A DNA stretch of 64,000 nucleotides from Nitrobacteraceae bacterium AZCC 2146 (GTDB lineage Bacteria > Pseudomonadota > Alphaproteobacteria > Rhizobiales > Xanthobacteraceae). The stretch covers positions 3,038,001-3,102,000 of the forward strand of contig JBAGRP010000001.1 in the NCBI GenBank assembly GCA_036924855.1, written 5' to 3'. A program made the translations under genes and the position numbers. Within the stretch, counting starts at the first letter, position 1. Each line of letters starts with the position of its first letter. Below are positions 4,431-23,505 of the stretch, piece after piece. The notes below the pieces were generated by a model that did not search any database, had not been told where the DNA came from, and was given only the letters and a program-made list of their open reading frames with translations.

Positions 4431-6776
4431 TTAGGCTCTCCCCGCAGCCAATCGCCGCGTCGGTTTCCCAACTTCGGCGTCGGTATCATCCGGAGCTTCG
4501 GAGCCAGACGTCGGCACCTGCATCAGGATGGTCTGCCCAGCGCTGGCGATCTCGATACCCTCCTGCTGGAAACGCAGCTTCATGCGGCGGTTGAACTCGC
4601 GCTGCACCGGCCAGCGGCCGGAATCGGTACAGCGAATCTGGCCGACGATCGAGGCCATGGAGCCATCGACCTTATCGACGCCCCACAATTCCAGATCGCT
4701 GCGGATCAACGACTTGAAGGCCGGCTCGCTCCGCATCTCCGCAACGATGTCCTTGAGCACCTGCCCGGCGCGGTCGGTGTCTTCCTTGTAGGCAACGCTG
4801 ACGCTGACGGCGGCATTGCCGGCGCCGCGGCTGGCGTTGGTGATCGTCGTCACCGCGCTGAACGGCACGATATGCACGGCGCCGTCGCCGGCGCGCAGCC
4901 GGATGGTACGGATCGAAACGTTCTCGACGACGCCCGACAGGCCGGACACGGTGACGTTATCGCCGACCTGCACGGTGTTCTCCAAAAGCAGGAACAGCCC
5001 GGTGATGACGTCCTGCACCAGCTTCTGCGAACCGAAGCCGATGGCGATGCCGACGATGCCGGCGCCGGCCAGCAAGGGCGCAACGTTGACGCCGATCTCG
5101 CTCAGCGCCGTCAGCGCCACCACCGTGACGATCACGCAGAGCAAGGTCGTGCGCAGCATCGGCTGAAACGTGCGCAGCCGCGCGGCGCGGGCGAAATGCG
5201 AGTCGCGCGTCAGCACCGCCAATTGGCGATCCATCAGCGCATTGCTGCCTTCCCACAACGCTGCCGCAGCCAGCGCAGCGATCCCAACGGTAACCACCGC
5301 GGAGACCATGCGGCTGCCGATTTGTCCGCCGTAGAACCAGACGAAGGCGTTGACACCCCAGACCTCCAGCAGCGCGATGAAGCCGATCACGGCGATGACC
5401 GCGGAGACGATCCGGCGCAGCAGCGGCAGATAGCGGTTGGCGCGGGTCTCCAGCCCGGGAAAGCGCTGCAGTATCTCGGGCCGGATCCGAAAACCGCGAT
5501 CGATCAGGCTGAGCGCCACGATCGACACCAGCCGCGTCACAAGCGCGACGATGATCGTACCGACGAAGTATTGCAGCAGCAGCGTATAGCCGTTCTGGAT
5601 GTTCAGCGCCCAGACGCCCCACAGCGCCAGCACCACGGCAATCGCCAGCACATGCCACAGGCCGGCGAAGCGGTTGCGCAGCATGCCCATGACGCCGGTG
5701 GCACCGGGCGGCGCGTGGATCGCCTGCGCCACCGGGCGGCGGCATTGCAGGATGATCACGACAACGAACAGATGCACCACCAGCATCACCAGCCGAAGCA
5801 GCGCGGCATAACCGCCACGCTGCAGGCCGAGCAGCAGCGCGACATTGGCAAACGCAATGCCGGAGGCACCGACCGCGACGATACGCCGGGTCCAGATCTC
5901 GATATAGGCGGCGGTTTCCTCGCGCACCGTGAACAGGCTGAGCGGACCGAACAGCGCCCGCGTCAGGCAGATAATGCCGCGCGCCAGCACATACGCATTC
6001 ACAGTCGCCAGAATCGCCAGCCGTGTCACGCCGGCGTCGCCGATGTCAGTACCGAGCAGCAGCGCCACGACGCCGGCGAACACCACGACGGGCAGCAATT
6101 CCAGTGCCAGCCGACCCAGCACGAAGGGCAGCCGCACCAGCGATTGCCAAACGCGGGTCAGGCTGCGATGCCGCCGGTGCAGATCCGGCACCTCGGTGAT
6201 ATCAGCCGTCGAGGATGGCGGATCGATCTGGTCGAGCACGCGCGCCGGGGTGCGGGCGGCGTAGGGAATCCGGGCTTCGAGCAAATTCAACGGCCGCCGC
6301 AGCAGCCGGCTCATCAACCATTCCGCCGTCAGCGCGCTGCCGAACACCAGCGCCAGCTTCCAGGCGATATCGAACAGCAATTGATAGGTCGAAGGATCGT
6401 TGGCGGTGCGCTGCAGCCAGAACCACAGCGCCGGGAATCGCGTGACCGAACGCGCCGCGGCGGAGATCTCGCGCACGGTCTCGCCGACCTGTTCCGAAAC
6501 GGTCAGCAGCAGTTGCGCGCCGAGACTGTCGGCGGTGAGCGGGATCGCCGGCTTCGCTTCAGGCTTCGCGGGAGTGGCCTGCGCGATAGCGCGCAGCGTC
6601 TCGATCATCTGGTTGCGCTTGCCGTCGTCCTGCAAGGTCTCCAGCGCACGATTGGCCTGCTCCGGCGTCAACGCGTTGGCAACCGGCGCCGGCGCCGCAT
6701 CGGTCTTCTGCGCGTGCGCGGGACCAGCGATCAACAGGCATAGCAGGGCGAAAAGCGGCAGGAATTTTGGCGCCAA
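4431..6776 (-). CDS. Mechanosensitive ion channel, MscS/MscK-like
   Basis: A large MscS-family channel (781 residues from the chosen start). It has a cleavable signal peptide (APKFLPLFALLCLLIAGPAHA), a periplasmic N-terminal part, about ten membrane segments between residues ~110 and ~560, then the conserved MscS core: a pore helix (APLLAGAGIVGIAIGFGSQ), KLVQDVITGLFLLLENTVQVGD and the beta domain with VSIRTIRLR. It would open on membrane tension during osmotic downshift. The frame runs open to 6881, but the TTG at 6776 follows AAGGGA and places the signal peptide at the N-terminus, so I use it; the longer form would bury the signal behind 35 charged residues. Confidence 0.88.
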   Translation of the reverse strand: MAPKFLPLFALLCLLIAGPAHAQKTDAAPAPVANALTPEQANRALETLQDDGKRNQMIETLRAIAQATPAKPEAKPAIPLTADSLGAQLLLTVSEQVGETVREISAAARSVTRFPALWFWLQRTANDPSTYQLLFDIAWKLALVFGSALTAEWLMSRLLRRPLNLLEARIPYAARTPARVLDQIDPPSSTADITEVPDLHRRHRSLTRVWQSLVRLPFVLGRLALELLPVVVFAGVVALLLGTDIGDAGVTRLAILATVNAYVLARGIICLTRALFGPLSLFTVREETAAYIEIWTRRIVAVGASGIAFANVALLLGLQRGGYAALLRLVMLVVHLFVVVIILQCRRPVAQAIHAPPGATGVMGMLRNRFAGLWHVLAIAVVLALWGVWALNIQNGYTLLLQYFVGTIIVALVTRLVSIVALSLIDRGFRIRPEILQRFPGLETRANRYLPLLRRIVSAVIAVIGFIALLEVWGVNAFVWFYGGQIGSRMVSAVVTVGIAALAAAALWEGSNALMDRQLAVLTRDSHFARAARLRTFQPMLRTTLLCVIVTVVALTALSEIGVNVAPLLAGAGIVGIAIGFGSQKLVQDVITGLFLLLENTVQVGDNVTVSGLSGVVENVSIRTIRLRAGDGAVHIVPFSAVTTITNASRGAGNAAVSVSVAYKEDTDRAGQVLKDIVAEMRSEPAFKSLIRSDLELWGVDKVDGSMASIVGQIRCTDSGRWPVQREFNRRMKLRFQQEGIEIASAGQTILMQVPTSGSEAPDDTDAEVGKPTRRLAAGRA

Positions 6777-6997: not shown

Positions 6998-7639
6998 TCA
7001 GATGTCGCGGCCTTCGACCTTTTCGGTCAGGGTCTTGACCAGTTCCGGCACCTTTTCCAAGTGCGGATTGATCGCCAGCGCCTTGCGGAAGGCGTCCAGC
7101 GCGCGCTTTTCATCACCGAGTTCCTGCATGATCATGCCGAGCCCGGCAAGCGCGCCGAAATGCCGGGGCTCGCGCACCAGCACCTGCTCGATATCCTCGA
7201 GCGAATGCGTGTAGTCATTCTGCAGGTAATACAGCGTGGCGCGCCGGTTCCAGCCTTCGATGTAATCCGGCCGCAGCTTGACCACGGCGGTGAGGAGCTT
7301 CAGCGCCACGTCGACCTGCTTGGCGTCCAGCGCAGTCTTGGCGCGCGTCATCAGCAGCGCCGTGGTGTCGCTGGAGGTCTGGCTCCACAGCGCCCAAATC
7401 CGTGCCTCGACATGCTTGGCGCTGTCGTCGTCCGGAGCGACTTTCAGCGCACCGAACAGGAAATCCAGCCCGCGCGTCTTGTCGGCGCCGACTTTCGGCA
7501 ATTTGGCTGGGGGCTCGGGGAGTTTCTTCTGCGCATCCGGCGGCGGGATGCGCCGTTCCTTGACCTGTGCGTGGCCAGGCGCTGCGGCGAAAAGCGCGAT
7601 CAGCAGAATTCCAAAACCTGCGGCTGGGAATCTAACCAT
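6998..7639 (-). CDS. Secreted tetratricopeptide-repeat protein
   Basis: A 213-residue exported protein. The signal peptide is MVRFPAAGFGILLIALFAAAPGHAQ, followed by a proline-rich linker and at least three tandem TPR units from about residue 100 (DVALKLLTAVVKLRPDYIEGWNRRATLYYLQNDYTHSLEDIEQ; HFGALAGLGMIMQELGDEKRALDAFRKALAINP). TPRs are protein-binding helical repeats; the partner is unknown. The frame can be extended to a TTG at 7690, but the ATG at 7639 places the signal sequence correctly, although no strong ribosome site precedes either. It is co-directional with the MscS-like gene downstream. Confidence 0.85.
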   Translation of the reverse strand: MVRFPAAGFGILLIALFAAAPGHAQVKERRIPPPDAQKKLPEPPAKLPKVGADKTRGLDFLFGALKVAPDDDSAKHVEARIWALWSQTSSDTTALLMTRAKTALDAKQVDVALKLLTAVVKLRPDYIEGWNRRATLYYLQNDYTHSLEDIEQVLVREPRHFGALAGLGMIMQELGDEKRALDAFRKALAINPHLEKVPELVKTLTEKVEGRDI

Positions 7640-7755
7640 GCCGCAAGTGTAGACACCAAAAAACGCGCTGCAAAGCAGCAAACGCGTCAAACAGCTGTGA
7701 TGTCGGAAATTTTCGTGCGGCCCAAAGGGCCGATCAAACCGGAATCAGACGCGGA

Positions 7756-10985: not shown

Positions 10986-11891
10986 ATGAACTCGCCAGTC
11001 ACGGGAGCCGCCGCCATGAAACTGCTCGATCCGGATGAACTGGTCGCCATCGACATCCATACCCATGCGGAAGAGCCCTGCGGCACCCATGGCGACGACG
11101 GCTATGACGATTTCCAGGCGCAGATGGCGGAATATTTCAAATCACCGCACAAGCATCCGCCCACCGTGCCGGAGACCGCCGCCTATTATCGCGCCAAGAA
11201 GATCGCCGCGGTGATTTTTCCCGTCGATGCCGAGCGCGAAACCGGTTTCCGTCGCTACAGCAATTATGAAATGCTGGAGATCGCCGCGGAGAACGCCGAC
11301 GTGCTGATCCCGTTCGCATCGATCGATCCGCACAAGGGCAAGCTCGGCGCGCGCGAGGCGCGCAAGCTGATCGAGGAATACGGCGTCAAGGGCTTCAAAT
11401 TCCATCCGACCATGCAGGGCTTCTATGCCAACGATCGCATGGCCTATCCGCTCTACGAGGCGATCAACGAAGGCGGCGCCATCGCGCTGTTTCACACCGG
11501 GCAGACCGGCGTCGGCTCCGGCATGCCGGGCGGCATGGGCATGCGGCTGAAATATTCCAACCCGATGTACATGGATGACGTCGCGGTGGATTTTCCCGAC
11601 CTGAAAATCATTCTGGCGCACCCCTCCTTCCCCTGGCAGGAAGAAGCGCTGTCGGTGGCCACCCACAAGCCGAACGTCTATATCGACCTCTCCGGCTGGT
11701 CGCCGAAATATTTCCCGCCGATCCTGGTGCGCTACACCAACAGCATTCTGCAGGACAAGATGCTGTTCGGATCGGACTGGCCGGTGATCTCGCCGGACCG
11801 CTGGATGGCGGATTTCGCCAAACTCGAAATCCGCGACGAGATCCGGCCCAAGGTGCTGAAGAACAACGCCCGCAAACTGCTCGGCATATGA
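10986..11891 (+). CDS. Amidohydrolase family protein, possibly beta-ketoacyl-CoA hydrolase-like
   Basis: A 301-residue amidohydrolase-2 TIM barrel. The metal site is suggested by IDIHTHAEE near the N-terminus, HTGQTG, ILAHPSFPWQEEA and the late aspartate in LFGSDWPV. Proteins of this subgroup include CouO-type hydrolases that cleave 4-hydroxyphenyl-beta-ketoacyl-CoA in phenylpropanoid breakdown; that would fit the MaoC genes and IclR regulator next door but is an inference. An alternative ATG at 11016 has a better ribosome site (GGGAG) and would remove ten residues. The stop overlaps the next gene as ATGA, so the O-antigen ligase may be co-translated. Confidence 0.85.
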   Translation: MNSPVTGAAAMKLLDPDELVAIDIHTHAEEPCGTHGDDGYDDFQAQMAEYFKSPHKHPPTVPETAAYYRAKKIAAVIFPVDAERETGFRRYSNYEMLEIAAENADVLIPFASIDPHKGKLGAREARKLIEEYGVKGFKFHPTMQGFYANDRMAYPLYEAINEGGAIALFHTGQTGVGSGMPGGMGMRLKYSNPMYMDDVAVDFPDLKIILAHPSFPWQEEALSVATHKPNVYIDLSGWSPKYFPPILVRYTNSILQDKMLFGSDWPVISPDRWMADFAKLEIRDEIRPKVLKNNARKLLGI

Positions 11892-13123
11892 CGAAGGCCG
11901 ATCTGCCGCGCAACCTTGCGGCCGCGCGACAGATCGCTGCGATCACCACCGCCTTCACACTGCCGCTCTCCACCAGCGGCCAGGCGATTGCGGTGTCGAT
12001 CTTCGCGCTGCTGGCGCTGCTGACGCTGGACCGCGCGCGGTTCAACGCGACATTGCGGACTCCAGCGGCCTGGCTTCCGGTGGCACTGTTCGCGCTGATC
12101 CTGATCGGCGTACTGTGGTCGATGCAGCCGTATGGCGCCGCGCTGAAATGGGTCGGGCCTTACGCCAAATTGCTGCTGATCCCGCTGGTGTTGGCGACCG
12201 CGTTCACACCAAAGCAGGCGCTGCAGATCGGCTATGGTTTTCTCGCCGCCTGCACGATCCTTCTCGCGCTGTCATGGGCCTCGTTCCTGTGGCCGAGCGG
12301 GCCGTGGGGCTGGTTCAAACTTCCCGGCGTTCCCTTCAAGGACAATGCGGTGCAGAGCGGGTGCTTTGCGCTATGCGCCTTTGGGCTGGCGATCGGCGCG
12401 GTGCGGATCCGGAGCGCAGGCGACAGGCGCCGCGTCATCGCCATGACGATCCTGGCATTGCTGTTTCTTGCCGACATTTTCCTGATCTATGTCTCGAAGA
12501 CCGGCGCGATCATGGCCGCCGCGCTGCTCGGCCTGTTCCTGCTGCAGGTCGAAGGCTGGCGCCGCGTGCTGCTGATCGCCGTGCCGGCGGTGATCGTGAT
12601 CGCCGTGGCGCTGTGGGCCTCGGCGCCGGCACAGCGGAAGCTCGCGGAGATTTCCTCCGACATCGACGCCGGCAAGGGCAGCGGCGTCCAGGAGACCGTC
12701 TCCACCGCGGCGCGGCTGGATTTCTGGGGCAAGGCCGTCGGCTTTGTGAAGGACGCGCCTGTCCTCGGCCACGGCACCGGCAGCATCAAGCCGCTGTATC
12801 AAAGTATGGAAGCGACAAAACCCTCGCCCTATGGCGAGGCGACGCCGGATCCGCACAATCAGTTCCTGCACATTACGCTGCAGGTCGGCCTGCTCGGGGG
12901 CGTGCTGCTGCTGGCGATGTGGATTGCGCACGCCCGGCTGTTTCTCGGCCGCGACTTCGCCAGCGTCATGGGTCAGGCGATCGTGCTGCAGAACGTGATC
13001 GGCTCGCTGTTCAACAGCCACATCTCGGCGGTGACGCAGGGCATGCTGTATTGCCTCGCTGTCGGGCTGCTGGGGGCAGTGGTGCGCTCAACCGCAACTA
13101 CCAAACCTGCTTCGTCATCCTGA
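11888..13123 (+). CDS. O-antigen ligase family membrane protein
   Basis: A 411-residue integral membrane protein of the WaaL/Wzy_C family with roughly ten to twelve membrane segments. The conserved periplasmic loop lies at about residues 255-330, containing ARLDFWGKAVGFVKDAPVLGHGTGS and DPHNQFLHITLQVGLLG, whose His and Arg are the residues expected for transfer of undecaprenyl-linked glycans to lipid A core. It overlaps the amidohydrolase by four bases, an unlikely functional partner, so the coupling is probably accidental. The GT25 gene follows in opposite orientation, and the pair may be a small surface-polysaccharide locus. Confidence 0.85.
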   Translation: MTKADLPRNLAAARQIAAITTAFTLPLSTSGQAIAVSIFALLALLTLDRARFNATLRTPAAWLPVALFALILIGVLWSMQPYGAALKWVGPYAKLLLIPLVLATAFTPKQALQIGYGFLAACTILLALSWASFLWPSGPWGWFKLPGVPFKDNAVQSGCFALCAFGLAIGAVRIRSAGDRRRVIAMTILALLFLADIFLIYVSKTGAIMAAALLGLFLLQVEGWRRVLLIAVPAVIVIAVALWASAPAQRKLAEISSDIDAGKGSGVQETVSTAARLDFWGKAVGFVKDAPVLGHGTGSIKPLYQSMEATKPSPYGEATPDPHNQFLHITLQVGLLGGVLLLAMWIAHARLFLGRDFASVMGQAIVLQNVIGSLFNSHISAVTQGMLYCLAVGLLGAVVRSTATTKPASSS

Positions 13124-20218: not shown

Positions 20219-20806
20219 CTACTTCAGCACTTCGCAAACGCTGCAATGATCTTGCCGCACGCCGCTGCCGCCCGTCCGGCACGACACCGCAGCCCACCAG
20301 GCGTCGAGCGACTCGCGGGCGCAATGAAGCTTCACGCTCATGCCGTCGGCAAAGGCGATCCATTCGGCGAAGCGATGAGAGGGCACCGCGATCACCACCG
20401 GGATATCGCTGCTCAGCGCGCGCTCGATCAGGTAGGACAGACCCTTGCCTTCGCGCTCCTGCCGCCCGAAGCGGTTGATGATGACGATGTCGGCGCCTTC
20501 GTCGATCGCGCTTGCCACTTGCGTGCCGGCGTCGAGCAATTGGCCGATGTCGAGCTTGCAGCCCTTGGCGCCGGCGCCGAGATCCTGGAACAGGCGCAAC
20601 TGCTCACCGGTATGCACCAGCACCGCGGAGAGCTGCGGCGCATCGAGGCCGTGATGGCCGAGCTGCACCAGCCCGACCGCGCGGATACCCCTGCCGTTCA
20701 GATCGGCTGCGAAATCGCGCAACACCGCGTCAGGGTCCTGATCTCTATCGTAGACCAGCGCTGCGAGATCGCATTGGGAGTCAAACATCACAAAACCCTG
20801 GGTCAT
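20219..20806 (-). CDS. DUF2478 domain-containing protein
   Basis: A 195-residue protein of the DUF2478 family, seen in FDSQCDLAALVYDRDQDPDAVLRDFAADLNGRGIRAVGLVQ (a P-loop-NTPase-like first strand without a Walker A glycine loop), then IVIINRFGRQEREGKGLSYLIERALSSDIPVVIAVPSHRFAEWIAFADGM. The IINRFGRQE motif is conserved in this family, which often lies in molybdate transport loci. The start is uncertain: ATG at 20806, 20824 or 20788; none has a strong ribosome site. A ModE box and a single-domain ModE gene next to it support a molybdenum-linked role, but the biochemical function is unknown. Confidence 0.8.
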   Translation of the reverse strand: MTQGFVMFDSQCDLAALVYDRDQDPDAVLRDFAADLNGRGIRAVGLVQLGHHGLDAPQLSAVLVHTGEQLRLFQDLGAGAKGCKLDIGQLLDAGTQVASAIDEGADIVIINRFGRQEREGKGLSYLIERALSSDIPVVIAVPSHRFAEWIAFADGMSVKLHCARESLDAWWAAVSCRTGGSGVRQDHCSVCEVLK

Positions 20807-20933
20807 CGCTGCATCGATGGCCATAGGTGCAGCCCAATCGACGATCTCATTTGACCCTAATCGAAAATGACACCATTCAAAAGCCCGATCATGCGGGACA
20901 GCGCTGCGAAAACCGGGCTGGACGCCGCGCGCA

Positions 20934-20965
20934 GCTACGATATATTCAATCGGATATAACGTAGC
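20934..20965. promoter_or_regulatory. ModE-type binding site
   Basis: The arms GCTACGATATAT (20934-20945) and ATATAACGTAGC (20954-20965) are inverted repeats matching at 11 of 12 positions with an 8-base spacer. The core CG(A/T)TATAT...ATATAACG is the known ModE consensus for molybdate-dependent repression. It ends 15 bases before the ATG at 20981 and about 130 bases before the divergent DUF2478 gene, and the adjacent convergent gene encodes a ModE-like DNA-binding protein. Confidence 0.8.
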
Positions 20966-20980
20966 CGACCGGAGCGTTGC

Positions 20981-21361
20981 ATGAATATCGACAGCCAGGC
21001 CCTCACCACCTGCGAGATTTCGGCCGACGGCCAGCAAATCTCGCTCGGCTTCGTCGATGCCGCCGGCCAGCCAGCCGCGCTGAAATTGCCGGTCGAGCAG
21101 GTCGGCGCGCTGGCGATGACCTTGCCGGCACTGATCGAGCGGGCGCTGCGGATGCGCTTTGGCGACGACAGCCTGCGTTACACCTATCCGCTGGGATCCT
21201 GGAGTTTCGAGCACGCCTCGGATTCCGCCAGCAGCATCGTCACGCTGCGCACCGCCGACGGCTTCAGCGTCTGCTTCTCGATGCAACCGCGGCAGCAGGA
21301 CGAGCTCGGCGAGGCCCTCGCCGCGCATCCCGTGTCGTCAGCACCGCAACTGGCGAATTGA
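20981..21361 (+). CDS. Hypothetical protein under a ModE box (126 aa)
   Basis: A 126-residue soluble protein of unknown family, MNIDSQALTTCEISADGQQI..., with mixed beta-strand-like segments (LGFVDAAGQPAALKLPVEQVGALAMTLPALIERAL; YTYPLGSWSFEHASDSASSIVTLRTADGFSVCFSM) and two cysteines. Start at ATG 20981 with GGAG six bases upstream. The ModE site lies 15 bases before the start, so transcription is expected to depend on molybdate supply. It converges with modE-like 21363, with one base between the stop codons. I do not recognise the protein; a role in molybdenum or cofactor handling is inference from context only. Confidence 0.7.
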   Translation: MNIDSQALTTCEISADGQQISLGFVDAAGQPAALKLPVEQVGALAMTLPALIERALRMRFGDDSLRYTYPLGSWSFEHASDSASSIVTLRTADGFSVCFSMQPRQQDELGEALAAHPVSSAPQLAN

Positions 21362-21362
21362 G

Positions 21363-21743
21363 TTATTTGGCCGCCGCCTTGCGCGGCTTGCCGATGTCCG
21401 CCTTCAGCGCCATCAGTTGCTTTCGCGCAGCCGTCGTCGCGGCGCGTTCGATCTTGCGGTAGCGCTCGACCAGAGAAAGTCCGAATGGTGTCAGCATCGC
21501 GCCGCCGCCATTCTTGCCGCCGGTCTGCCGCTCCACCGCGGCCTGGCCGCAAATTGTATTGAGTTCGTCGACCAGATCCCACGCCCGCTTGTAGGACATC
21601 TCCATCGCGCGCCCGGCGGCGGAGATCGAGCCGGTGGCATGGATGTTTTCCAGCAACTGGATTTTACCGGGCCCGATCCGGCCCTCGGGATTGAGGTCGA
21701 TGCGGACGCTCAGGGATGGCAGAGGTAGGGCTGATTTCGGCAT
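21363..21743 (-). CDS. Single-domain ModE-like DNA-binding protein
   Basis: A 126-residue protein matching the N-terminal winged-helix domain of ModE: IGPGKIQLLENIHATGSISAAGRAMEMSYKRAWDLVDELN (helix-turn-helix about residues 38-57), then GGKNGGGAMLTPFGLSLVERYRKIE, the characteristic wing. Full ModE has two further Mop/TOBE molybdate-binding domains; here the sequence ends with a basic tail (KADIGKPRKAAAK) and no TOBE motifs, so molybdate would have to be sensed by a partner or not at all. It is next to a ModE-type box (20934-20965), the best candidate target. DUF2478 and the 126-residue protein complete the cluster. Confidence 0.9.
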   Translation of the reverse strand: MPKSALPLPSLSVRIDLNPEGRIGPGKIQLLENIHATGSISAAGRAMEMSYKRAWDLVDELNTICGQAAVERQTGGKNGGGAMLTPFGLSLVERYRKIERAATTAARKQLMALKADIGKPRKAAAK

Positions 21744-21981: not shown

Positions 21982-22581
21982 TCAGCCATGCAGTTTTTTC
22001 GCGGTTTCCGCGATCACCTTGCCCTGATAACGCGCACCGGCGAGTTCGTTCGCGCTGGGCTGGCGGCTGCCGTCGCCGCCGGTGATCGTGGTCGCGCCAT
22101 AGGGCGAGCCGCCGGTGACTTCATCGAGCTTCATCTGGCCCGCAAAACCGTAGTTCAGGCCAACCACCGTCATGCCGAAGTGCAGGAGGTTGGTGATGAT
22201 CGAGAACAAGGTGGTCTCCTGGCCGCCATGCTGGGTCGCGGTCGAGGTGAAGGCACCGCCGACCTTGCCGTGCAGCGCGCCCTTCATCCATAGCCCGCCG
22301 GCCTGATCGAGGAAGTTGGCCATCTGCGAGGCCATACGGCCGAAGCGGGTGCCGGTGCCGACGATGATGGCATCGTACTTGGTGAGATCGTCGATGGTGG
22401 CGATCGGGGCGGCCTGGTCGACCTTGTAGTACGAGGCCTTGGCGACTTCGGCGGGCACCAGTTCGGGCACGCGCTTGATATCGACGGTGGCGCCAGCCTC
22501 CCGCGCGCCTTCGGCGACGGCATTGGCCATGGCTTCGATGTGGCCGTAAGCGGAATAATACAGAACGAGTACTTTGGTCAT
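21982..22581 (-). CDS. wrbA: NAD(P)H:quinone oxidoreductase, WrbA type
   Basis: A 199-residue flavodoxin-fold protein, the WrbA/type IV NQO family, which binds FMN and reduces quinones by two electrons. It shows the FMN phosphate loop ([26 protein letters not shown]), the [26 protein letters not shown] segment and the [25 protein letters not shown] loop typical of WrbA. Cytoplasmic and soluble. Start at ATG 22581 preceded by AGGAGACTG. Followed by an unrelated small protein; the repeat 22626-22706 lies upstream. Confidence 0.96.
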
Positions 22582-22625
22582 GGTCAGTCTCCTGTTGGAT
22601 ATTTTGATAGGTGAGAGTTAGGGCT

Positions 22626-22706
22626 CGTCATGGCCGGGCTTGTCCCGGCCATCCACGTGTTGAACTCCGAAGGTCTTGGATGCCCGGCACAAGGCCGGGC
22701 ATGACG
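22626..22706. repeat. Palindromic intergenic repeat, family C
   Basis: About 80 bp that start CGTCATGGCCGGGCTTGTCCCGGCCATCC and end with TGCCCGGCACAAGGCCGGGCATGACG. The two ends are complementary, forming a strong hairpin. It lies between the pirin and wrbA genes, both minus strand. Confidence 0.8.
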
Positions 22707-22711
22707 GCCGT

Positions 22712-23410
22712 TCAGGCCGCGTCCACCAGCACCAGCTCGGAATCTTCCAGCGCGGTGATGGTCACGTTCGCCTCGTTGCGGATCGCGACGCCGTCGCGGG
22801 CGTTGACGCGGATGCCGTTGATCTCGATCGCACCCGCCGCTGGCACCAGATAGCCGTTGCGCGCTACGCCGAGCGGATACTTCGCGCTTTCGCCGGCCTT
22901 CAGCGACGTCGCCAGCACCCGGGCGTCAGCGCGGATCGGCAATGCATCGGTGTCCGCCTTGAAGCCGCTGGCGATGGTGACAAAGCTGCCGGAACGATCC
23001 GACTTCGGAAACGGTTTTGCGCCCCAGCACGGCTGGCCGCCGGCCTGCGTCGGCTCAAGCCAGATCTGGAAGATCTTCGTCGTCGACGGCTCCAGATTGT
23101 ATTCGGAGTGGCGGATGCCGGAGCCCGCGCTCATCACCTGGACGTCGCCGGCCTCGGTGCGGCCCTTGTTGCCCAGGCTGTCCTGATGGGTGATGGCACC
23201 CTCGCGGACATAGGTGATGATTTCCATGTTGGCGTGCGGGTGCGCCGGGAAGCCGGTGTTCGGAGCGATCTCGTCGTCATTCCAGACCCGCAAAGCCCCA
23301 TGGCCCATATTGTTCGGATCGTAATGGCTGCCGAACGAGAAGTGGTGCTTGGCCTTCAGCCAACCATGGTCGGCGCTGCCGAGCTTGTTGAAGGGACGAA
23401 GTTCGATCAT
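22712..23410 (-). CDS. Pirin family protein
   Basis: A 232-residue bicupin of the pirin family. The metal site is seen in the first cupin as GFPAHPHANMEIITYVREGAITHQDSLGNKG and SAGSGIRHSEYN, giving the three histidines and glutamate that hold Fe. Some bacterial pirins are quercetin dioxygenases and others modulate metabolism; I cannot distinguish. The frame opens at 23491, but ATG at 23410 has a GGAGG site seven bases upstream and matches pirin starts. The LysR gene at 23506 is divergent with only 95 bases between, so it probably controls this gene and perhaps wrbA. Confidence 0.93.
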   Translation of the reverse strand: MIELRPFNKLGSADHGWLKAKHHFSFGSHYDPNNMGHGALRVWNDDEIAPNTGFPAHPHANMEIITYVREGAITHQDSLGNKGRTEAGDVQVMSAGSGIRHSEYNLEPSTTKIFQIWLEPTQAGGQPCWGAKPFPKSDRSGSFVTIASGFKADTDALPIRADARVLATSLKAGESAKYPLGVARNGYLVPAAGAIEINGIRVNARDGVAIRNEANVTITALEDSELVLVDAA

Positions 23411-23505
23411 GACGAAACCTCCGGGGTTGATCTGCTGGCATCTGGATAGGCTCTCCCGAATGGTGCATAAATAGAAATGGTTGAAACTCATCGTTTAGGA
23501 ATTTT

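Follow-up and report, generated by a model that had tools for sequence, protein, structure and literature searches.

A one-domain ModE, its box and a gene family without a Pfam entry: a probable molybdenum-scarcity switch in Nitrobacteraceae bacterium AZCC 2146

The sparing of a scarce metal is a familiar response where iron is concerned and, in the case of molybdenum, chiefly for nitrogenase. Regulators consisting of the ModE DNA-binding domain only are already a known kind of protein. One of them, Agrobacterium tumefaciens ModE-S (Atu2564), studied by Hoffmann et al. in 2016, reportedly represses the transporter genes modABC and responds to the status of the molybdenum cofactor (Moco), not directly to molybdate; and Mycobacterium vaccae 10, in the work of Karzanov et al. 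in 1991, is said to make an alternative, molybdenum-free formate dehydrogenase (FDH) when molybdenum is withheld. Here we analyse a window of 64,000 nt from the genome of Nitrobacteraceae bacterium AZCC 2146 (contig JBAGRP010000001.1, positions 3,038,001 to 3,102,000), in which a gene for a one-domain ModE, also termed ModE-S, converges on a gene here designated UNK, and a ModE box (Mo-box) lies between UNK and a divergent DUF2478 gene. We regard it as probable that ModE-S acts here as a molybdenum-scarcity switch, and that this genome keeps the UNK, DUF2478 and ModE-S genes of a molybdenum-sparing regulon. Computation established that the box is there, that it overlaps a conserved promoter-like motif, that it is conserved ahead of UNK and that aldehyde dehydrogenase (ALDH) and FDH genes are neighbours in relatives; repression, the signal, the sparing purpose and the activity of UNK are what we infer.

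The unit resembles that of A. tumefaciens in its regulator, a DNA-binding domain only, and in a Mo-box placed in a presumed target promoter, and differs in that no box was found near modA, UNK and DUF2478 being presumed to be controlled instead. Escherichia coli ModE has the same DNA-binding domain and the same type of box; unlike it, and unlike Rhodobacter MopA/MopB, the ModE-S of the window yielded no Mop sensor domains. As in M. vaccae 10, a metal-free NAD-dependent FDH may stand in for a molybdenum enzyme, but that case is one of physiology, whereas in Alphaproteobacteria it is an FDH gene that has a box, a regulator gene and UNK close by. Rhodobacter MopA/MopB repress anfA when molybdate is present, the same logic of molybdenum-repressed alternatives (PMC7294313), although the targets here would be UNK and DUF2478, and in relatives ALDH and FDH, instead of the regulator of an alternative nitrogenase. 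Oxidation of furanic aldehydes by Pseudomonas putida depends on a molybdate transporter, and unspecific aldehyde dehydrogenases have been proposed for the residual traces of oxidation (PMC7545826). A molybdenum-sparing reading is in line with both; the passages of PMC7545826 consulted mention no ModE-box control of ALDH. Among the titles and abstract openings listed by literature searches, none ties ModE to ALDH control, but 'ModE' also matches 'mode' and most subscription journals lie outside the coverage, so that absence is not proven; DUF2478 came up in a single paper, as a table entry.

A ModE box over the presumed UNK promoter

The two arms of the box (20934–20945 and 20954–20965) stand 8 nt apart, are complementary at 11/12 pairs as read from the sequence, and lie within a longer imperfect repeat (20922–20977). 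The arms, the position between UNK and the divergent DUF2478 gene, and the 15 bases separating the box end from the UNK ATG (20981) all agree with what the first-pass annotation had described. The core (20938–20961, CGATATATTCAATCGGATATAACG) has 0 mismatches to CGWTATATN8ATATAWCG, a consensus based on the general Mo-box pattern and the window site and later borne out by the reversed-pattern control. It is the sole match in the window at ≤3 mismatches (shuffle mean 0.07), and scored 37.0 bits, against −1.7 for the next-best window site, with a weight matrix built on 71 related boxes that include the window box itself. No other site in the whole genome (7.64 Mb) has ≤1 mismatch. At ≤3 mismatches there are 17 sites against 9 for the reversed control, indicating that the three-mismatch sites are mostly chance.

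A single sigma-70-like site, TGGACG-16-TATATT, was found in 20780–21040 (shuffle mean 0.2). It is oriented toward UNK, and its −10-like element falls within the box (Table 1). The upstream element is conserved: TGGAC starts 18–21 nt upstream of the box in 21/33 non-redundant UNK upstream regions (45/63 overall), compared with a shuffle mean of 0.5 and a maximum of 4/33 over 200 rounds. The box itself, at ≤3 mismatches and within 250 nt, was found in 71/77 distinct UNK upstream regions, 53 of them with 0–1 mismatches, compared with 72/3000 random stretches from the same loci, and it starts 44–47 nt ahead of the UNK ATG in 37/71 cases. Because the box overlies a promoter-like −10 with conserved TGGAC upstream, repression of UNK is predicted: ModE-S at the box would, judging from position, block the UNK promoter. 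An activator, by contrast, would have nothing to act on below the box, the 19 nt between core and ATG being too few to hold a promoter.

Table 1. Coordinates of the unit within the window.
Feature	Position	Strand	Basis and remarks
DUF2478 gene	20219..20824	−	PF10649; ATG at 20824, 20806 or 20788 possible
−35-like element TGGACG of presumed UNK promoter	20919..20924	+	promoter scan and conserved TGGAC
ModE box (Mo-box)	20934..20965	.	12-nt arms; core 20938–20961 holds −10-like TATATT (20941–20946)
Likely Shine-Dalgarno GGAG of UNK	20971..20974	+	presumed, read from sequence
UNK, 126 aa, acidic, no Pfam family	20981..21361	+	open reading frame, homologues, predicted model
ModE-S, one-domain ModE, 126 aa	21363..21743	−	matches to TIGR00637, 2ijl and 1b9m

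The regulator gene is convergent with UNK and, as had been claimed, a single base separates the two gene ends (21361 and 21363). Its product matches TIGR00637 (E 2.8e-27; 94.7 bits, slightly below the curated 98.5) and E. coli ModE 1b9m (E 2.2e-15 over 23–98), and the closest solved structure is the 135-aa chain of PDB 2ijl (E 7.7e-29, residues 4–116), which we take to be a protein from A. tumefaciens. It thus has the N-terminal winged-helix DNA-binding domain of two-domain ModE and no Pfam match to a C-terminal TOBE/Mop sensor domain to E 1, as the annotation had held; DNA-binding domain only and homology to 2ijl place it among the one-domain ModE-S proteins, and regulation by it is likely. 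The divergent gene also proved to be what it had been called, its product matching PF10649 (E 3.1e-47; 160.5 bits against a cut-off of 22.3) as the sole match in the genome, with a weak NTPase_1 match besides (E 0.012). Homologues beginning MFDAQCD seem to favour its start at 20788.

Where molybdenum is sufficient, ModE-S would bind 20938–20961, the signal being perhaps Moco status by analogy with A. tumefaciens; bound ModE-S would cover the −10 and start region and repress UNK, perhaps with the divergent DUF2478 gene, and molybdenum scarcity would release that repression. In relatives the same box type would also free an NAD-dependent ALDH and a metal-free NAD-dependent FDH, allowing aldehyde and formate oxidation without Moco, while UNK and DUF2478 probably act on the use of molybdenum or Moco itself.

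The unit in its own genome and in relatives

No molybdate transporter lies in the window, as previously claimed; each of the genome's three modA-like matches falls outside it, and modABC, recognised from a profile match for modA and from the open reading frames for modB and modC, lies approximately 344 kb from the unit. No box at ≤3 mismatches was found in 14 kb around modA, where the best weight-matrix site before the gene scored −8.6 bits. The unit therefore does not seem to control modABC, which A. tumefaciens ModE-S reportedly controls through Mo-boxes, and a modABC-type ModE regulon was rejected for this genome for want of a box at modA. A second candidate box (G000:C1:1337950-1337973; L019 9951–9974) has 2 mismatches and scores 18.1 bits. 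It lies just ahead of a YqeB/XdhC-like gene (TIGR03309, below cut-off), beside a broken copy of ModE. It is very improbable that box and trio have come together by chance, or are left over from a decaying system and lack a present function: only these two candidate boxes occur in the genome at ≤2 mismatches, the second beside the broken copy, and six genus-mates lack UNK, but against this stand intact open reading frames, a 37-bit box and the conserved promoter-like motif.

Two sets of relatives' loci were compared: 58 loci, nearly all labelled as Bradyrhizobium or as metagenome-assembled genomes of Hyphomicrobiales/Xanthobacteraceae, with one Hyphomicrobium, and 27 loci overlapping these in part. 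The figures record which genes lie nearby and do not measure regulation. The 58 loci (1.07 Mb) held 104 boxes at ≤2 mismatches, where the reversed pattern gave 2. In 10 of these loci DUF2478, box and UNK adjoin directly, as in the window, 6 of the 10 also having ModE-S convergent and no more than 300 nt away, and in 23 further loci an ALDH gene sits between DUF2478 and the box. Conservation of the trio, for which the first-pass annotation had asked that relatives be searched, is not lacking, because the DUF2478-box-UNK arrangement recurs in other loci; its suggestion of a molybdenum-handling system of its own held as regards a compact, recurring ModE-box unit, but not as regards a self-standing one, the unit looking more like the central part of a wider molybdenum-scarcity regulon.

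Within 10 kb of UNK, the 45 full-length loci showed ALDH in 38, ModE-S in 42, DUF2478 in 29 and a fusion of ModE with a PBP_like domain in 16; the genome-wide background of ALDH was 13–31 matches each in four genomes of 5.4–9.1 Mb. The fetched stretches of the 27 loci held ALDH in 15, metal-free FDH in 5 and either in 19. Against the equivalog NF005750 (cut-off 329), the three FDH proteins tested (L064, L157 and L155) reached 697–712 bits; the L048 protein ALDH_C scores above the threshold of the ExaC model. An association with ALDH was seen again in other families (L156, L158, L159), and one with FDH in two others (L155, L157). Boxes also stand ahead of ALDH in three genomes without UNK (G076, G105, G004); in a further one (G106) the ALDH gene points toward the box, and it was excluded from the count. 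Three of the six boxes with ≤1 mismatch in the 9.08-Mb genome G095 precede ALDH genes, one of these stop-interrupted; of the others, one separates UNK from an ALDH, one separates ModE-S from an amidotransferase gene and one precedes a pirin gene. The five boxes in G043 are placed at a LysR gene adjoining metal-free FDH, a nifH-type gene, a ModA-like gene (by eye), a YqeB-like gene and UNK/ALDH. Molybdenum sparing is suggested because many of the boxed genes are molybdenum-free counterparts of molybdenum enzymes. The 28 MoCoBD_1 (molybdo-hydroxylase) matches in the genome under study also speak for this reading.

Such neighbours raise the possibility that UNK is an accessory factor for the metal-free dehydrogenases. 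ALDH or FDH in 19/27 loci, and ALDH in 38/45, are what this would predict, but neither gene is near UNK in the window or in 8/27 loci, and ALDH and FDH are of different Pfam families; we hold it improbable.

The reading of the unit as a ModE-S scarcity switch has several observations against it. In the genome under study, which has 13 ALDH matches, the 10 kb on either side of UNK contain neither ALDH nor FDH, and the closest ALDH match is 35 kb from any of the 17 sites, so that the sparing switch is drawn from relatives. Among these, metal-free FDH was near UNK in 0/58 loci, including 0/45 full-length loci within 10 kb, and 8/27 loci had neither ALDH nor FDH in the fetched stretch; the 58 loci, being mostly Bradyrhizobium, are not independent; 6/77 UNK upstream regions have no box; and two genomes without UNK (G048 and G001) have their boxes at modA instead. 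The core lies at least 113 nt from the DUF2478 start, which makes control of that gene by the box unsure. Finally, none of the 6 genus-mates examined has UNK, yet in 5 of them ModE-S, box and DUF2478 are all present. For the window alone the statement is narrower: UNK, and perhaps DUF2478, would be made under molybdenum shortage.

It is possible, but doubtful, that an alphaproteobacterial molybdenum-sparing response exists under one-domain ModE, in which, as Moco becomes scarce, boxed metal-free ALDH and FDH replace molybdenum-dependent oxidation of aldehydes and formate and UNK is the core effector on Moco or on idle molybdoenzymes. If this were true, ModE boxes ahead of ALDH and metal-free FDH genes would carry metal sparing into the ordinary carbon metabolism of those soil and root-nodule bacteria that have many molybdo-hydroxylases, a one-domain ModE need not govern molybdate uptake, and UNK and DUF2478 would have a testable setting.

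Distribution, predicted structure and possible role of UNK

UNK matched 0 Pfam families, and 792 homologues were found among 862 candidates. It is present in 22/149 genomes of the family, 9/297 of the order (two being weak partial matches) and 3/289 of the class, the own genome included in each case and at most 15 candidates per genome having been scored for order and class. From these sequences UNK is a real, patchily distributed alphaproteobacterial family without a Pfam entry. Boxes with ≤1 mismatch were found in 14/22 family genomes with UNK, compared with 30/127 without it (Fisher p 0.0006); the reversed pattern matched in 6/149.

In five of the genus-mates ModE-S, box and DUF2478 all run in the same direction with UNK absent; the sixth (L206) has DUF2478, but its 11 kb contain no ModE-S and no box. 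UNK is evidently dispensable where five genomes retain the rest of the unit. Since the convergent UNK/ModE-S order of the window matches that of distant genera, loss of UNK in the genus-mates would be simpler than gain. The window's WrbA, pirin and LysR neighbours are shared by the three genus-mates whose open reading frames were inspected (L201–L203).

The same genomes bear on another possible role, in which UNK would supply the sensing or co-regulation that ModE-S lacks, binding molybdate or Moco and toggling the one-domain regulator; as the UNK gene itself has a box, this would form a feedback loop. Where the 58 loci have a ModE-S match it is downstream of and convergent with UNK in 49/51, within 250 nt in 26, and no ligand domain was found in ModE-S, but UNK is found in 22/149 family genomes against 44 with boxes at ≤1 mismatch, and 5/6 genus-mates keep regulator, box and DUF2478 with UNK absent; such a role is unlikely. 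An obligate partnership with ModE-S as the sole explanation was rejected, UNK being absent from 6/6 genus-mates of which 5 keep ModE-S and box.

The predicted model of UNK, made from 65 diverse sequences, has a mean predicted local distance difference test score (pLDDT) of 88.3 and shows a β3-α unit repeated twice; one built earlier on 30 close sequences had been poor, at a pLDDT of 53.5. Comparison of the profiles of the two halves supported an internal repeat weakly (probability 35.8 over 38 columns). The protein is acidic (isoelectric point 4.49; median 4.8 over 80 copies), which speaks against nucleic-acid binding. Its last residue is Asn in 64/80 and His in 13/80 full-length copies (77/80; 67/70 distinct proteins), Asn in the window. 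As this residue is kept (homologues L048–L126, L154–L159) although the tail before it varies, there is a hint that the carboxyl end works. UNK would most likely be a protein-binding adaptor, acidic and pseudo-dimeric, with a functional C-terminal Asn/His.

Alternatively, though improbably, UNK could be a Mop-like binder of molybdate or Moco, a chaperone delivering the last molybdenum under scarcity. ModG, a molybdate binder, heads the Foldseek list for the model (E 0.011, TM-score <0.3), a lead only; the structure searches gave no significant match, the best being E 2.6e-3 in a viral library, with Mop/DiMop, COMM, Pur-alpha and Whirly among the folds considered for UNK, the UNK profile against PDB sequences gave noise only (E 0.79 and 0.89), and no Mop/TOBE profile is among the 10 families listed for the 65 members to E 10.

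Other genes near boxes and UNK

Paired copies of UNK were seen once, at L067, where two divergent copies (5933–6304 and 7334–7690) stand 1 kb apart with no box and a recombinase-like gene (by eye) lies a few kb away. At L111 (JAUEPE010000057.1) a Bradyrhizobium-like UNK/ALDH/ModE-S locus is labelled 'Frankia sp. RB7', and label or assembly may be wrong. A second protein of approximately 170 aa is encoded near boxes and UNK at L058 (5257–5790, without Pfam match) and L068 (5356–5862), and at L159 an open reading frame of 145 aa without Pfam match (11847–12281) shares a perfect box with a divergent ALDH. The ModE-type helix-turn-helix domain fused to PBP_like (PF12727; L056 4657–5736) is found in 20/58 loci (for example L091, L098, L100 and L112), in many cases with a further ALDH gene running divergently. 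Next to ModE-S or a box, L049 (6764–7486, the one in which the Pfam match was checked), L050, L054, L157 and L162 have a gene resembling class-I glutamine amidotransferases. The boxed pirin-like gene of G095 is at L164 5308–6030, and the nifH-type gene preceded by a box in G043 (L166 5827; L055 20–1030) matches TIGR01287 above its cut-off. In the window itself, WrbA-like and pirin-like genes, named by eye, adjoin ModE-S at 21982–23491.
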